From: an uncultured Trueperaceae bacterium
GTDB taxonomy: Bacteria > Deinococcota > Deinococci > Deinococcales > Trueperaceae
Assembly (NCBI GenBank): GCA_913057685.1
Contig: CAJXOA010000004.1
Location: 1-64,000 of the forward strand
Length of the DNA: 64,000 bases
Direction: 5' to 3'
Position numbers and translations under genes: made by a program. Shown here piece after piece: positions 29,704 through 35,862 of the stretch; position 1 is the stretch's first letter; each line of letters begins with the position of its first letter. The notes beneath the pieces are model-generated. The model saw nothing but the letters and a program-made list of their open reading frames with translations. It was not told where the DNA came from and did no database searches.

Positions 29704-30543
29704 TCAGCGGCGCGCGGTGAGGGCGGCGACCAGGAAGACCGACGCCTGCAGCAGGATGATCGCCGCGCCGCTGGGGACGTCGGCGGCGTAGGAGGCGAAC
29801 AGGCCGACGAGGGTGGTGGTGACGCCGATCGCCACCGCGCCGACGCTCATCGCGACGAGGGAACGGGCGGCGAGGCGGGCGGCGGCGGCTGGGATGACGA
29901 GGTACGCGGCCATCAGCACGATGCCGACCACCTGCGCGGAGACGACGACCGCGATCGCGGCGACGGCGAACAGGCCGTAGTCGAGGAGGCGGACGGGGAG
30001 GCCGTCGGCGGCGGCGAGGTCGGCGTCGAACGTCGCGTAGGCGAGGCGACCCCACGCGAGCACGAGGAGCGTCACGATCGCGCCGGCGGTCACGAGGATG
30101 ATGCGGAGGTCGGCGGGGCCGACGGCGAGGATCGAGCCGAACAGCAGGTGGTAGACGTCGACGACGTTCGCGTCGGGCGGGATCATCGACAGGAACAGCA
30201 CGCCGAGCGCGACGGCGACGGCGAAGAACACGCCGATGGCGGTGTCGCTCGAGAGGTCGGTGCGGTCGCGGACCCAGGCGATGGCGAGGGCGGCGGCGAG
30301 GGTGAAGGGCAGCGCCACCCACAACGGTTGGGCGAGGAGGCCGGCGCCGCCGACCCCGTAGGCGACGAGCGCGCCGAGGGCGATCCCCCCGAACGAGGCG
30401 TGCGCGAGGCCGTCCCCGAGGAACGCGAGGCCGCGCTGGACGACGAACACCCCGAGCAGGCCGGTCATCATCGCGATGGCGGCCCCGCCGACGAGGGCGC
30501 GTTGGAGGAAGGCGTACTGGAGCGGTTCGAGGAGGGCGTCCAT
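29704..30543 (-). CDS. znuB: Zinc ABC transporter permease
   Basis: A 279-residue inner-membrane permease of the ABC-3 family (zinc/manganese) with about eight or nine helices. It has the FLGDGLAHASFGGIALG cytoplasmic-loop motif and VVGIVLMAAYLVIPAAAARLLA-like segment (VLMAAYLVIPAAAA). It is the last gene of the minus-strand znuA/znuC/znuB cluster, starting ten bases after the ATPase stop. Zinc as substrate is inferred from the His-rich ZnuA and the operator upstream of it. Confidence 0.9.
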   Translation of the reverse strand: MDALLEPLQYAFLQRALVGGAAIAMMTGLLGVFVVQRGLAFLGDGLAHASFGGIALGALVAYGVGGAGLLAQPLWVALPFTLAAALAIAWVRDRTDLSSDTAIGVFFAVAVALGVLFLSMIPPDANVVDVYHLLFGSILAVGPADLRIILVTAGAIVTLLVLAWGRLAYATFDADLAAADGLPVRLLDYGLFAVAAIAVVVSAQVVGIVLMAAYLVIPAAAARLAARSLVAMSVGAVAIGVTTTLVGLFASYAADVPSGAAIILLQASVFLVAALTARR

Positions 30544-30553
30544 CAGCGGCGCC

Positions 30554-31354
30554 TCACGGGAGGACCAGGTCGTGGTCGTGCCCCACGTGCCCGTACGCCT
30601 GCTCGAGGCAGGCGCGGGTGAGGGCGCGTTCGGGCGGCCCGAAGCCGATGCGGGTCCGGTTCAGAACGAGGACGTCGCTGGCGTGGTGGCGGGCGGCGGC
30701 GAGGTCGTGCGTCACCATCAGCACCGTCGCGCGGGCGTCGCGCTGGTAGCCCTCGAGGAGGTGGTTGAGGTCGTGCTCGGCGAGGAAGTCCACGCCGGTG
30801 GCGGGCTCGTCGAGGATCACGAGGTCCGGCTCGCGCACCAGGGCGCGGGCGAGGAAGGCGCGCTGCAGCTCCCCGCCGGAGAGGCGGGCGAGCGGGCGGT
30901 CGCGGAGGCGGGTGGCCCCCACCCGCTCGAGGGCGGCGCAGGCGGCATCGCGCTCGGTGGCGGTGATGCGGGCGGGCCAGCGCCCGCGCGCGCCGGAGAC
31001 GACGAGCTCGAGGGCGGTCGCGGGGAAGCTGCGATCGAAGGTCTTGAGTTGCGGGACGTAGCCGATGCGGCGCGGTTCGCTGCGCGGGGCGCGATCGAAC
31101 ACGCGGACCTCGCCGCCGTCGGGGCGGACGAGGCCGAGCAGGGCCTGGACGAGGGTGGATTTGCCGGCGCCGTTCGGACCGATGACGGCCAGGAAGCGCT
31201 CGCGGGGGAGCGTGAACGACACGTCGTCGAGGACGAGGGCGTCGCCGCGCGTCACGCGCAGGTTCGTGACCGCGAGCGCGGCAGGAACGGCCGCGTCCCG
31301 GACCGGCCGGTCGGCCTCGGTCCGGGACGTCGGGACGGTGGGGGCGTCGCTCAA
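30554..31354 (-). CDS. znuC: Zinc ABC transporter ATP-binding protein
   Basis: A 266-residue ABC ATPase. It has GPNGAGKSTLVQALLGL, the Q-loop YVPQLKTFDRSFPAT, LSGGELQRAFLARALVREP, ILDEPATGVD and the switch MVTHDLAAARHHA, and ends with a His/Asp-rich GHVGHDHDLVLP that could bind metal. Start choice: TTG 31354 is preferred because a TACCCT box at 31375-31380 puts the transcription start near 31368, downstream of the earlier in-frame ATG (31408). The TTG overlaps the stop of a five-codon mini-ORF as TTGA (see 31351-31368). The box implies that this pair can be transcribed independently of znuA. Confidence 0.85.
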   Translation of the reverse strand: MSDAPTVPTSRTEADRPVRDAAVPAALAVTNLRVTRGDALVLDDVSFTLPRERFLAVIGPNGAGKSTLVQALLGLVRPDGGEVRVFDRAPRSEPRRIGYVPQLKTFDRSFPATALELVVSGARGRWPARITATERDAACAALERVGATRLRDRPLARLSGGELQRAFLARALVREPDLVILDEPATGVDFLAEHDLNHLLEGYQRDARATVLMVTHDLAAARHHASDVLVLNRTRIGFGPPERALTRACLEQAYGHVGHDHDLVLP

Positions 31355-31368
31355 CGGGCGAACTCCAT
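31351..31368 (-). CDS. Putative leaderless mini-ORF upstream of znuC
   Basis: ATG GAG TTC GCC CGT TGA encodes only MEFAR. Its ATG sits exactly where the leaderless pattern predicts (six bases after TACCCT), and its stop overlaps the znuC TTG as TTGA. This would let ribosomes load on the leaderless ATG and restart at the weak TTG. Whether it is translated is an inference. Confidence 0.4.
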   Translation of the reverse strand: MEFAR

Positions 31369-31374
31369 CCCCAT

Positions 31375-31380
31375 AGGGTA
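31375..31380 (-). promoter_or_regulatory. -10 box of znuC-znuB
   Basis: TACCCT on the minus strand, in the short gap between znuA and znuC. Confidence 0.5.
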
Positions 31381-31407
31381 GCGCGGCCGTGGGGTCCGCA
31401 CCCCGCA

Positions 31408-32694
31408 TCAGTCCGCGGACAGGGCGTCGCGGATGGTTTCGGCGTTGTAGCGCATCGTCGCGAGGTACCCCTCGCGCCCCTCGCCGCCGCCGAGCGGGTC
31501 GAGGATGGCGAGCCGCACGCCGGCCTCGTCGGCCAGCACGCGGGCGGGGCGGTCGGGGAGTTGCACCTCGGAGAAGATGGCGCGCGCACCGGTCCGCTCG
31601 AGGACGTCGATGGCCTCGGCCAGCTGGCGGGCGCTGGGTTCGCGGCCGGGGAACGGCTCGATCTCCATCACGAGGTCGAGGTCGTAGTGGGCGGCGAACG
31701 ACGACCAGGCGTCGTGGAACGGCACGAACGGCTGGCCCGCGAACGGCGCGAGCAGGGTCGCGATCTCCGCGTCGAGCGCCGCGAGATCGGCCAGGTAGGC
31801 GGTTTCCGCCGTTCGGATGGCGCCCTCCGCCTCGGGCCAGTGCGCGGCGAAGCGGTCCGCGAGGAGGCGCGTGACGTCCATCATGACGACCGGATCGGTG
31901 AAGACGTGGGGGTTGCCGTCCCCGTGGTCGTGCGCGTGCTCGTCCTCGTGCGCATGCTCGTCTTCGTGGGCGTGCTCGTCCTCATGCGCGTGCTCGTCCT
32001 CATGGGCGTGCTCGTCCTCATGGGCGTGCTCGTCCTCGTGCGCATGCTCGTCCTCGTGGGCATGCTCGTCCTCATGCGCATGCTCGTCTTCGTGGGCGTG
32101 CTCGTCCTCATGCGCGTGCTCGTCCTCATGCGCGTGCTCGTCCTCATGGGCGTGCTCGTCCTCGTGCGCATGCTCGTCCTCGTGGGCGTGCTCATCCTCA
32201 TGGGCATGCTCGTCCTCGTGCGCGTGCTCATCCTCATGCGCGTGCTCGTCCTCGTGCGAATGCTCGTCCTCGTGCGCATGCTCGTCCTCATGCGCGTGCT
32301 CGTCCTCGTGGGCATGGTCGTGGTCATGGGGCTCGGCTTCGATGCCGAGGGCATCGAGGACGTGGACGACCTCCGTGTCGCCCCGGTTCGCGTCGACGAG
32401 TTCCAGCACGAATTCGTCGAGGACACCATTGACGATGACCATGTCGGCGTCCGCGAGGCGGGCGGCGTCGCGGGGGCTCGGATCGTAGGCGTGGGGGCTC
32501 GCGCCGGGCGGCAGCAACACCTCGACCTCGGCGGCGTCGCCGATGAGCCGTTCGGTCACTTCGCGGTACGGCTCGATCGAGACGACGATGCGGTCGGTCG
32601 CTTGAGCGGAGGCGAACGCGAACGTCGCGGCGACCAGGAGGAGGGCGGCCCAACGGAGCGCCCGACCGATGTGATGTTGAGAATGCATTCTCAT
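31408..32694 (-). CDS. znuA: Zinc-binding protein ZnuA with giant His-rich repeat
   Basis: The extracytoplasmic zinc receptor of the cluster, 428 residues. An N-terminal signal peptide (about residues 1-34, hydrophobic core WAALLLVAATFAFASAQ) leads to the cluster-9 fold: VVSIEPYREVTERLIGD, the first zinc His in PPGASPHAYDPSP, DADMVIVNGVLDEF, then the His-rich loop, NPHVFTDPVVMMDVTRLLAD, and PFVPFHDAWSSFAAHY. The loop (about 127-252) is 21 tandem HAHEDE hexapeptides, about 126 residues, against roughly 20-30 in E. coli ZnuA. ATG 32694 follows TACACT by seven bases (leaderless), and a perfect palindrome (32678-32693) covers codons 1-6, a likely Zur operator. Confidence 0.93.
   Translation of the reverse strand: MRMHSQHHIGRALRWAALLLVAATFAFASAQATDRIVVSIEPYREVTERLIGDAAEVEVLLPPGASPHAYDPSPRDAARLADADMVIVNGVLDEFVLELVDANRGDTEVVHVLDALGIEAEPHDHDHAHEDEHAHEDEHAHEDEHSHEDEHAHEDEHAHEDEHAHEDEHAHEDEHAHEDEHAHEDEHAHEDEHAHEDEHAHEDEHAHEDEHAHEDEHAHEDEHAHEDEHAHEDEHAHEDEHAHEDEHAHEDEHAHDHGDGNPHVFTDPVVMMDVTRLLADRFAAHWPEAEGAIRTAETAYLADLAALDAEIATLLAPFAGQPFVPFHDAWSSFAAHYDLDLVMEIEPFPGREPSARQLAEAIDVLERTGARAIFSEVQLPDRPARVLADEAGVRLAILDPLGGGEGREGYLATMRYNAETIRDALSAD
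31939..32316. repeat. 21 tandem 18-base units in znuA
   Basis: Each unit encodes HAHEDE; one unit reads HSHEDE (near 32257). Differences between units are nearly all synonymous third-base changes (C/T in His and Asp codons), so the protein repeat is under selection or is homogenised while DNA drifts. It has no spacers and is coding, so it is not a CRISPR array. Confidence 0.95.
32678..32693. promoter_or_regulatory. Palindromic operator, probable Zur box
   Basis: TGAGAATGCATTCTCA is a perfect 16-base palindrome of the Fur-family type (7-2-7, compare TGAtAATnATTATCA). It covers the transcription start and first codons of znuA. A Fur/Zur-family gene lies about 1.5 kb away (34226-34618). Confidence 0.75.
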
Positions 32695-32701
32695 GTCTGG
32701 G

Positions 32702-32707
32702 AGTGTA
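32702..32707 (-). promoter_or_regulatory. Leaderless -10 box of znuA
   Basis: TACACT on the minus strand, seven bases before the znuA ATG and directly adjoining the palindromic operator. Confidence 0.65.
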
Positions 32708-33854: not shown

Positions 33855-34229
33855 ATGAGCGAAGACGGCATCTTTGCCCGCATCATTCGCGGCGAACTCG
33901 ACGCCGACGTCCTCCACCAGGACGACTACGTCACCGCGTTCCGCGACGTCGCGCCGCAGGCGCCGGTGCACGTGTTGATCGTGCCGAACGAGGCGATCCC
34001 CAGCGTCGCGCACGTCGAGGGCCGCCACGAGCCGGTCCTCGGCCGCATGATCAGCGTCGCGCGCCGCATCGCGGAGGCCGAGGGGATCGCGGAGGACGGC
34101 TACCGCCTGATCGTGAACACCGGCCGGGACGCCGGCCAGGAGGTCGACCACCTGCACGTCCACCTGATCGGTGGGCGGCCGCTCGGCCCCATGCTCGCCC
34201 ACCCGGACGGGGGAACGGACCCCGCGTGA
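33855..34229 (+). CDS. HIT-family nucleotide-binding protein
   Basis: A 124-residue HINT-branch protein, likely a nucleoside phosphoramidase or related hydrolase. It has FARIIRGELDADVLHQDD and AFRDVAPQAPVHVLIVPN, and the catalytic triad motif DHLHVHLIGG (H-x-H-x-H). ATG follows a leaderless box that shares pyrE's stop. First gene of an operon leading via a GTGA overlap into a Fur-family gene. Confidence 0.92.
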   Translation: MSEDGIFARIIRGELDADVLHQDDYVTAFRDVAPQAPVHVLIVPNEAIPSVAHVEGRHEPVLGRMISVARRIAEAEGIAEDGYRLIVNTGRDAGQEVDHLHVHLIGGRPLGPMLAHPDGGTDPA

Positions 34230-34618
34230 CCCGCACCACCGCCCAACGCCGCGCCATCCTCGACGCGCTCACCGAGGCCGCGGGACCGCTGACCCCCCGC
34301 GAGGTGCACGACGCCGCGAAGCGGGAGCGACCGAACCTCGGCATGGCGACGGTCTACCGCAACCTCGCGCGCCTCGAGCGAGCGGGCGACGTGATCGCGG
34401 TGCACCTCCCCGACGACGCCACCCGCTACGAACCGGCGGGGCGGGGGCACCACCACCACTTCCGCTGCCGCGCCTGCGGCGGCGTCTTCGAGCTCGCCGC
34501 CGACTGCCCCGTCCAGGTGCTGGAGGGCGTCACGCTGCCCGGCGGGTACACCGTCGAGGACCACGCCCTCACCCTGTACGGCCTGTGTCCCGACTGCCGG
34601 ACCGGCGACGCGTCGTGA
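34226..34618 (+). CDS. Fur-family regulator, probable Zur
   Basis: A 130-residue Fur-type repressor. It has an N-terminal winged helix (AQRRAILDALTEAAGPLTPREVH, GMATVYRNLARLERAG) and a dimerisation/metal domain with the GHHHHFRCRACGGVFEL sensory site and a second CPDC near the end (two CxxC for structural zinc). The HHHHF variant of H-x-H-H-H-F is standard. Zur is favoured over Fur because a palindromic box sits at znuA 1.5 kb away, but PerR or Fur cannot be excluded. GTG start overlaps the HIT stop; its own stop overlaps the next GTG. Confidence 0.88.
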   Translation: MTRTTAQRRAILDALTEAAGPLTPREVHDAAKRERPNLGMATVYRNLARLERAGDVIAVHLPDDATRYEPAGRGHHHHFRCRACGGVFELAADCPVQVLEGVTLPGGYTVEDHALTLYGLCPDCRTGDAS

Positions 34619-35862
34619 CCGCCGCCGCCCACCGCCGCCCCCGCCTCCGGTGGGCGGTCCTCGTCGCGGTGTGCGCGACGGTCGTGGGGCTCGCCACCGG
34701 AGCGTTCGCACAGCAAACCCTCACGACCGACGACGCGACCGACATCGGCTACGTCGAGGGCACCATCCGCAGCATCGTCGCCGGCGACCGCGCCGACCGC
34801 GCGATCGTCGAGCTGCCGGACGGCCGGGTGATCGAGGCGGACCTGCCCGGCCCGGAACCGTTCGGGGGCGGCGGTGACCTCCCGCCCTTCGAGGTCGGCG
34901 ACCGGGTCGAGGTGTACTACTCGCCGTCGCCCGACGAAGCGCGAAGCTACGTCGTCTCCGACTGGATCCGGCGGCCCGCCCTCGTCGGCCTCGTCGCGGC
35001 GTTCCTGCTCGCCTCGATCCTCGTCGCCGGCTTCAAGGGCCTCCGCGCCTTCGTCGCGACCGGCGCGAGCCTGGTGTTGATCATCGGGTACGTCGTACCC
35101 GCGATCACCGGCGGCGCGAACGCCGTCCTCGTCTCCCTCGTGGGGGTGGGCGGCATCCTGGTGCTCGCCATCTACTTCGTGCACGGCATCTCCTGGTCCA
35201 CGACCGCCGCGCTGATCGGGACGTTCCTCGCCGCCGCCGCGACGCTGGGCCTGGGCGTCGTCTCCGCCGACCTCGCGCACCTCACCGGCTACGGCTCCGA
35301 GGACGCCGCCATGATCGCCGCGAGCCTGCCGGACGTGAACCTGCGCGGCTTGATGCTCGCCGGCCTCCTGATCGGGGCGCTCGGGGCGTTGACCGACATC
35401 ACGATCGTGCAGGCGTCCGTCGTCCGCGAACTGGCGCACGCCGATCCCGAGATGCGGTCGTTCGGCCTGTACCGGCGCGGCATGAACGTCGGCCGCGACC
35501 ACATCGGCTCCCTCGTCAACACGCTGGTGCTCGCCTACACCGGCGCGGCGCTGCCGCTGCTCGTGCTGCTCGGGCAGGGCGAACTGCCGTTCGCGCGGGC
35601 CGTGAACCTCGAACTCATCGCCGCGGAGGTCGTGCACACCCTCGTCGGCTCGATCGGCCTCATCCTCGCCGTGCCGCTCACGACCTTCATCGCCGCCGCG
35701 ATGTTCCGCGGTGGGCGGCTGCCGCTGAAACCGGGCGAACTCGAGCACGGCCACGCGCACGGACACGGGCACGGGCACGCGCACGAGCCCCCGCACGACC
35801 CCGAGGCCGACCGCCCCGAGGCCCCGACCGCAGGGCCCGACCATGGACGCGCCGGCGGGTGA
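34615..35862 (+). CDS. YibE/F-like membrane protein with His-rich tail
   Basis: A 415-residue protein of the YibE/F family. After a signal-like N terminus (WAVLVAVCATVVGLATGAFAQ) comes an OB-like soluble segment (about 40-115), then seven or eight membrane helices, with the GALGALTDITIVQASVVREL and GRDHIGSLVNTLVLAYTGAALPL family stretches. The C terminus ends in HGHAHGHGHGHAHEPPHD, a likely metal-binding tail. Start GTG in a GTGA overlap with the Fur-family gene. The His tail and Zur neighbour suggest a metal-related role; this is inference, as the family has no settled function. Confidence 0.85.
   Translation: MTAAAHRRPRLRWAVLVAVCATVVGLATGAFAQQTLTTDDATDIGYVEGTIRSIVAGDRADRAIVELPDGRVIEADLPGPEPFGGGGDLPPFEVGDRVEVYYSPSPDEARSYVVSDWIRRPALVGLVAAFLLASILVAGFKGLRAFVATGASLVLIIGYVVPAITGGANAVLVSLVGVGGILVLAIYFVHGISWSTTAALIGTFLAAAATLGLGVVSADLAHLTGYGSEDAAMIAASLPDVNLRGLMLAGLLIGALGALTDITIVQASVVRELAHADPEMRSFGLYRRGMNVGRDHIGSLVNTLVLAYTGAALPLLVLLGQGELPFARAVNLELIAAEVVHTLVGSIGLILAVPLTTFIAAAMFRGGRLPLKPGELEHGHAHGHGHGHAHEPPHDPEADRPEAPTAGPDHGRAGG

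Follow-up and report, generated by a model that had tools for sequence, protein, structure and literature searches.

A ZnuA-type solute-binding protein whose predicted disordered histidine-rich loop is an array of 21 near-perfect hexapeptide repeats

The 64,000-nucleotide stretch of DNA analyzed here (the window), from an uncultured Trueperaceae bacterium, encodes a ZnuA-type solute-binding protein (SBP) in which 21 tandem copies of a His-rich hexapeptide replace the known disordered His-rich loop that precedes the second zinc-ligand histidine. The array takes an already known feature to an extreme and is unusually regular, and it probably serves as a tethered, low-affinity zinc antenna or buffer beside the high-affinity site. 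It is located on the minus strand (31939-32316), consists of 21 units of 18 bp, 20 reading HAHEDE and one, unit 4, reading HSHEDE, and spans 378 bp in frame (residues 127-252 of 428). With a Tandem Repeats Finder score of 550, it is by far the top tandem repeat of the 64 kb. The whole His/Asp/Glu-rich loop, delimited by composition and by AlphaFold2 pLDDT, is somewhat longer (residues 123-257; 31924-32328, minus strand), and its 135 residues comprise 47 His, 66 Asp or Glu and 22 Ala or Ser. A sequence-only reading of the window had reported a ZnuA with 21 tandem repeats at these positions; its coordinates and count are exact to the base, and both the identification as a ZnuA-type SBP and the placement of the array as its His-rich loop hold. 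The length of about 126 residues that it gave to the loop fits the array itself and falls short of the full His-rich stretch, and it was right that the loop is far longer than in well-studied ZnuA proteins, with 126-135 residues against the 12-50 of the His-rich loops in studied zinc SBPs (PMC4542158).

The gene, znuA (31408-32694, minus strand, with its ATG at 32694), encodes a 428-residue zinc ABC transporter SBP of cluster A-I. The product is a full-length match to the Pfam family PF01297 (profile positions 1-263 of 263, E 5.8e-43), and among solved structures Synechocystis ZnuA (1PQ4, E 2.9e-31) is nearest to it in sequence. The two-lobed ZnuA/TroA-type fold is present in the AlphaFold2 model, for which the top Foldseek matches are the ZnuA structures 1PQ4 and 2OV1 (TM-score for 1PQ4 0.88-0.91 by target). 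The pLDDT exceeds 90 in much of the core and is about 40 across residues 121-258, and the loop is predicted to be a disordered segment between well-predicted lobes. The predicted zinc ligands, all encoded on the minus strand, are His68 (PHAYDP; 32491-32493), His263 (NPHVF; 31906-31908), which lies directly after the array, and His327 (PFHDAW; 31714-31716). All three are invariant in a 13-protein alignment and align with 1PQ4, and the loop sits between the first and the second of them.

The operon order is znuA-znuC-znuB on the minus strand, with znuA first. The ABC ATPase gene znuC (30554-31408 by its ORF coordinates; PF00005, E 1.1e-28) overlaps znuA by one base, shared between the znuC start codon and the znuA stop codon, and is followed by the ABC-3 permease gene znuB (29704-30543; PF00950, E 1e-61). 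The SBP misses the cut-off of the NCBIfam ZnuA equivalog (126.5 bits versus the 268 needed) and likewise that of AztC (133.5 versus 350). For this reason the protein is called ZnuA-type, not a proteobacterial ZnuA equivalog, and its zinc specificity is argued from the loop, the palindrome described below and the gene neighborhood. The Mn-type paralogous SBP of the same genome lacks a His-rich loop. A second His-rich stretch (EHGHAHGHGHGHAHEPPHD, 35743-35797), encoded with CAC codons, forms the end of a YibE/F-like membrane protein near the znu operon.

At the DNA level 11 of the 21 units are distinct. Their differences from the unit consensus are synonymous in 32 of 33 cases, one altering an amino acid, against a baseline of 8 synonymous changes among the 54 possible single changes. 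Because the units are copies and not independent, a per-column test is the safer choice; in this test, third codon positions account for five of the six variable columns (P = 0.004-0.018). Similarity between units peaks at a lag of seven (p 0.0016 by permutation, or 0.016 when all tested lags are allowed for), and from this pattern units 8-14 and 15-21 (31939-32190, minus strand) likely arose by duplication of a 7-unit, 126-bp block. The longest exact repeat inside the array is 56 bp. The earlier observation that nearly all nucleotide differences within the array are synonymous is thus borne out. The broader claim of a conserved peptide over drifting DNA stands within the array and fails between species, where the units differ, and the similarity of the units, which might be taken for long conservation, is owed in part, though not solely, to block duplication.

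Among the His codons of the array, CAT accounts for 19 of 42 (45%), as against 4.2% in the genes of the window, and the Glu and Asp codons of this stretch, which is 75% GC, stay GAG and GAC. A founder unit or selection may account for the CAT excess. Selection against slippage is disfavored, as the Glu and Asp codons are without such diversity and the copies are not independent, and CpG deamination was rejected, since GAC before G is equally a CpG, yet mostly remains GAC. A cruder comparison of CAT usage in other genomes is unreliable, its background having contained wrong-strand ORFs. Antisense open frames over the array were also rejected as genes, being expected from a stop-free 18-bp repeat in frame.

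A period-6 HxH[ED]3 array occurs in one of 111 genomes of the phylum, namely that of the window. His-rich ZnuA loops are found in all five species of the genus that were compared, with units that differ in each. The sister species (G004), whose SBP core is 89% identical, has loop units of HAHEDEHADE, and the remaining three congeners have other His/Asp/Glu motifs in loops of 79 to at least 98 residues. In most other family members (a few could not be parsed) the loop is 12-37 residues long and contains 0-6 His; the two exceptions have 7 His in 51 residues and 12 His in 65. The composition of the loop persists within the genus while its motif turns over. Conservation of the peptide between species, as first proposed, is contradicted by the sister's unit, by the other motifs of the congeners and by the many His-free loops of the family. 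As the contigs of two congeners (L034, L035, L036 and L037) end inside the znuA loop, draft genomes may lack or truncate long His arrays.

A perfect 16-bp palindrome, TGAGAATGCATTCTCA (32678-32693), overlaps the start codon of znuA. It is a predicted Zur operator recognized by its recurrence in the family, in many members of which a related palindrome overlaps the start of znuA or lies before it. The residues encoded across it differ among relatives (MRMHSQ, MRTNSQ, MRIRSR), so that it is the DNA that is conserved and not the peptide. The strict form, TGAGAAYNNRTTCTCA, has one site in the window genome at 0-1 mismatch and eight across 39 genomes of the family, of which five are at znuA, two lie before znuC-like genes and one lies before a COG0523-type gene. 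The product of the last of these genes starts with MKERLPVTVLSGFLGAGKT, which we take to be typical of COG0523 GTPases. Given this restriction to znuA, znuC-like and COG0523-type genes in the family, zinc-dependent repression of znuA is likely, and Zur may bring it about at the predicted operator. A candidate for Zur is the Fur-family regulator encoded about 1.5 kb from znuA (34226-34618, plus strand; PF01475, E 5.2e-23). The sequence TACACT (32702-32707, minus strand), seven nucleotides before the ATG, is a possible -10 box, and in relatives a similar TANNNT stands 6-9 nt ahead of the ATG; from its position the znuA mRNA is likely leaderless. In another genome (G008; L045 / L103), a divergent gene for a strongly Asp/Glu-rich protein begins close to znuA, and the two genes may use one palindromic operator.

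When 84,980 species were scanned for H[AS]H[ED]3 repeated three times, 23 loci emerged, which encode 15 ZnuA-type SBPs, three ZrgA proteins (PF10986), two PCuAC proteins, one TonB-dependent receptor and two others. The latter two are outer-membrane-like, have no Pfam match, and each lie next to ZnuA and ABC-3 genes. At least 20 of the 23 loci are zinc-uptake proteins or neighbors of zinc-uptake genes. The 15 SBP loci, 14 assigned by family scans and one (L075) through its 94.7% DNA identity to L066, are distributed over Bacillota, Actinomycetota and Pseudomonadota. Among them is a znuA from a MAG labeled Anaerolineae (L074); it shares 92% identity with the gene of an alphaproteobacterial MAG and is probably misbinned. 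In a Clostridiaceae AdcA-like protein (L071), a ZinT domain is followed by about 17 units in which HAHEDE and HDHEDE are mixed.

A quick tree of the window protein and 14 of these SBPs (L065 failed parsing), with some long branches, rejects the array carriers as a single clade (AU p 7e-5), and places next to the window protein its congeners without an array of the HAHEDE kind. A separate origin is supported for the window array, but the tree gives no exact count of origins. Horizontal transfer of the array alone found no support. Copy number was expected to vary, and close relatives do differ by whole units: Anoxybacillus ayderensis and A. thermarum, at 96.6% identity, are separated by one 54-bp (3-unit) gap, and another close pair (92% identity) has 10 and 13 units. 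A literature search on the string HAHEDE gave only unrelated papers among the matches listed, as judged by title and abstract, and one on repeat-number variation in His-rich zinc loops gave nothing relevant.

From these observations we infer that the array binds zinc, hands it over and benefits the cell. In the proposed mechanism, a disordered and strongly acidic chain, with repeated H-x-H and Asp/Glu ligands, would be tethered beside the His68/His263/His327 site. When zinc is scarce, znuA would be derepressed and the chain would weakly bind several zinc ions (about ten). The zinc held by the loop would raise the local concentration, and ions passing from the chain to the high-affinity site would then be imported by ZnuBC. 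The array changes in length by whole units, so that selection would act on which ligands the loop contains and roughly how long it is, and not on one particular motif. The capacity is extrapolated from published loops. H. influenzae Pzp1 has a loop of about 50 residues, and the whole protein binds 1.6-1.9 Zn (PMC4542158); the 61-residue His-rich loop of V. cholerae ZrgA adds about 4-5 weak sites (PMC9820375). On this basis the capacity of the 135-residue loop may be about ten zinc ions, and the dozens envisaged by the sequence-only reading appear too many.

The role of an antenna or buffer is supported by the position of the array, placed where solved ZnuA proteins have their disordered His-rich loop, by the absence of the loop from the Mn-type paralog together with the zinc-uptake link of at least 20 of 23 loci, by the occurrence of the array in carriers that do not form one clade, by the constraint at the peptide level, and by the restriction of the strict palindrome described above. 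Published work on such loops also favors it: deletion of the loop from C. koseri ZnuA removes two zinc sites, a loop histidine of S. enterica ZnuA is able to join the metal site (PMC8900738), and the AdcA loop aids zinc recruitment under restriction, a contribution visible only if the protein lacks a second accessory region as well (PMC7858048). However, deletion of the pneumococcal loop alone has no significant effect on growth (PMC7858048), and the ZrgA loop is not essential (PMC9820375). These results weaken the antenna reading, as do the many family members that cope with short or His-free loops and the NCBIfam scores below the equivalog cut-offs. The same deletions with weak or no phenotype suit the main rival explanation, in which an exposed disordered loop absorbs growth by slippage or unequal recombination, few histidines are needed and extra units are nearly neutral. 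The whole-unit differences between close relatives, the 7-unit block duplication and the fast turnover of motifs in the genus are also as expected from tolerated growth. Against it stand the variable sites, almost all synonymous, the long His-rich loops of all five congeners, and the recurrence of similar arrays in unrelated zinc-uptake proteins, and we regard such near-neutral expansion as rather unlikely.

A different function is conceivable for the same loop. Filled with zinc, it could slow or block transfer to ZnuB at high zinc and so act as a brake or sensor. For Synechocystis ZnuA, Wei et al. (2007), as cited in PMC4542158 and PMC8900738, proposed that the loop has a regulatory or high-zinc-sensing role. 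Nothing in the present analysis specifically supports this role, and the predicted operator would already shut the gene off in zinc-replete cells. A brake is highly improbable. The chance that the copy number was inflated or collapsed during assembly is very slight indeed. The draft consists of 74 contigs, and contigs break inside the loop in two congeners, but an exact repeat of at most 56 bp could be resolved by a short-read assembler, 11 units are distinct, the array is internal to a 95-kb contig, and other species, isolates included, carry related arrays, as does the sister species despite its broken contigs. The array is not an obvious assembly artefact, and 21 is the copy number of the draft assembly.

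Among related proteins the loops range from none with His to 21 regular units, a natural gradient along which zinc stoichiometry, hand-over rate and fitness could be measured against array length. Unrelated zinc-uptake proteins with a near-identical hexapeptide provide an exceptionally clear example of a recurrent low-complexity sequence with a likely function. This recurrence and the predicted operator are what the analysis adds. A bolder and decidedly doubtful proposal is that HAHEDE is a preferred, self-contained weak zinc-binding hexapeptide found repeatedly in evolution, with array length determining how much zinc the uptake protein of a lineage can buffer; if true, HAHEDE copy number would be tuned by gain and loss of units in each lineage.

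Among the closest comparisons is the loop of the sister species, which has the same flanks and includes HAHEDE as part of its unit. That unit, however, has ten residues, and the contigs break inside the loop. HAHEDE or near-identical units (HSHEDE, HAHEEE, HAHDDE) occupy the same loop in AdcA-type SBPs of Anoxybacillus, Priestia, Metabacillus and Halobacillus, in AztC/AdcA-like SBPs of Actinomycetota and in ZnuA of Alphaproteobacteria, but these arrays mostly have 3-13 units, the cores are distant and the carriers are not one clade. The three ZrgA proteins carry H[AS]H[ED]3 arrays without any sequence or structural relation to cluster A-I SBPs. The studied ZnuA/AdcA/AztC proteins (from E. coli, Salmonella, Synechocystis, C. 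koseri, H. influenzae as Pzp1, and S. pneumoniae) share with the window protein the fold, the placement of a disordered, His/Asp/Glu-rich loop, and a gene adjoining znuC/znuB homologs. By contrast, their loops are irregular His-rich segments of 12-50 residues, and that of the window protein is a near-perfect hexapeptide array of 126-135.
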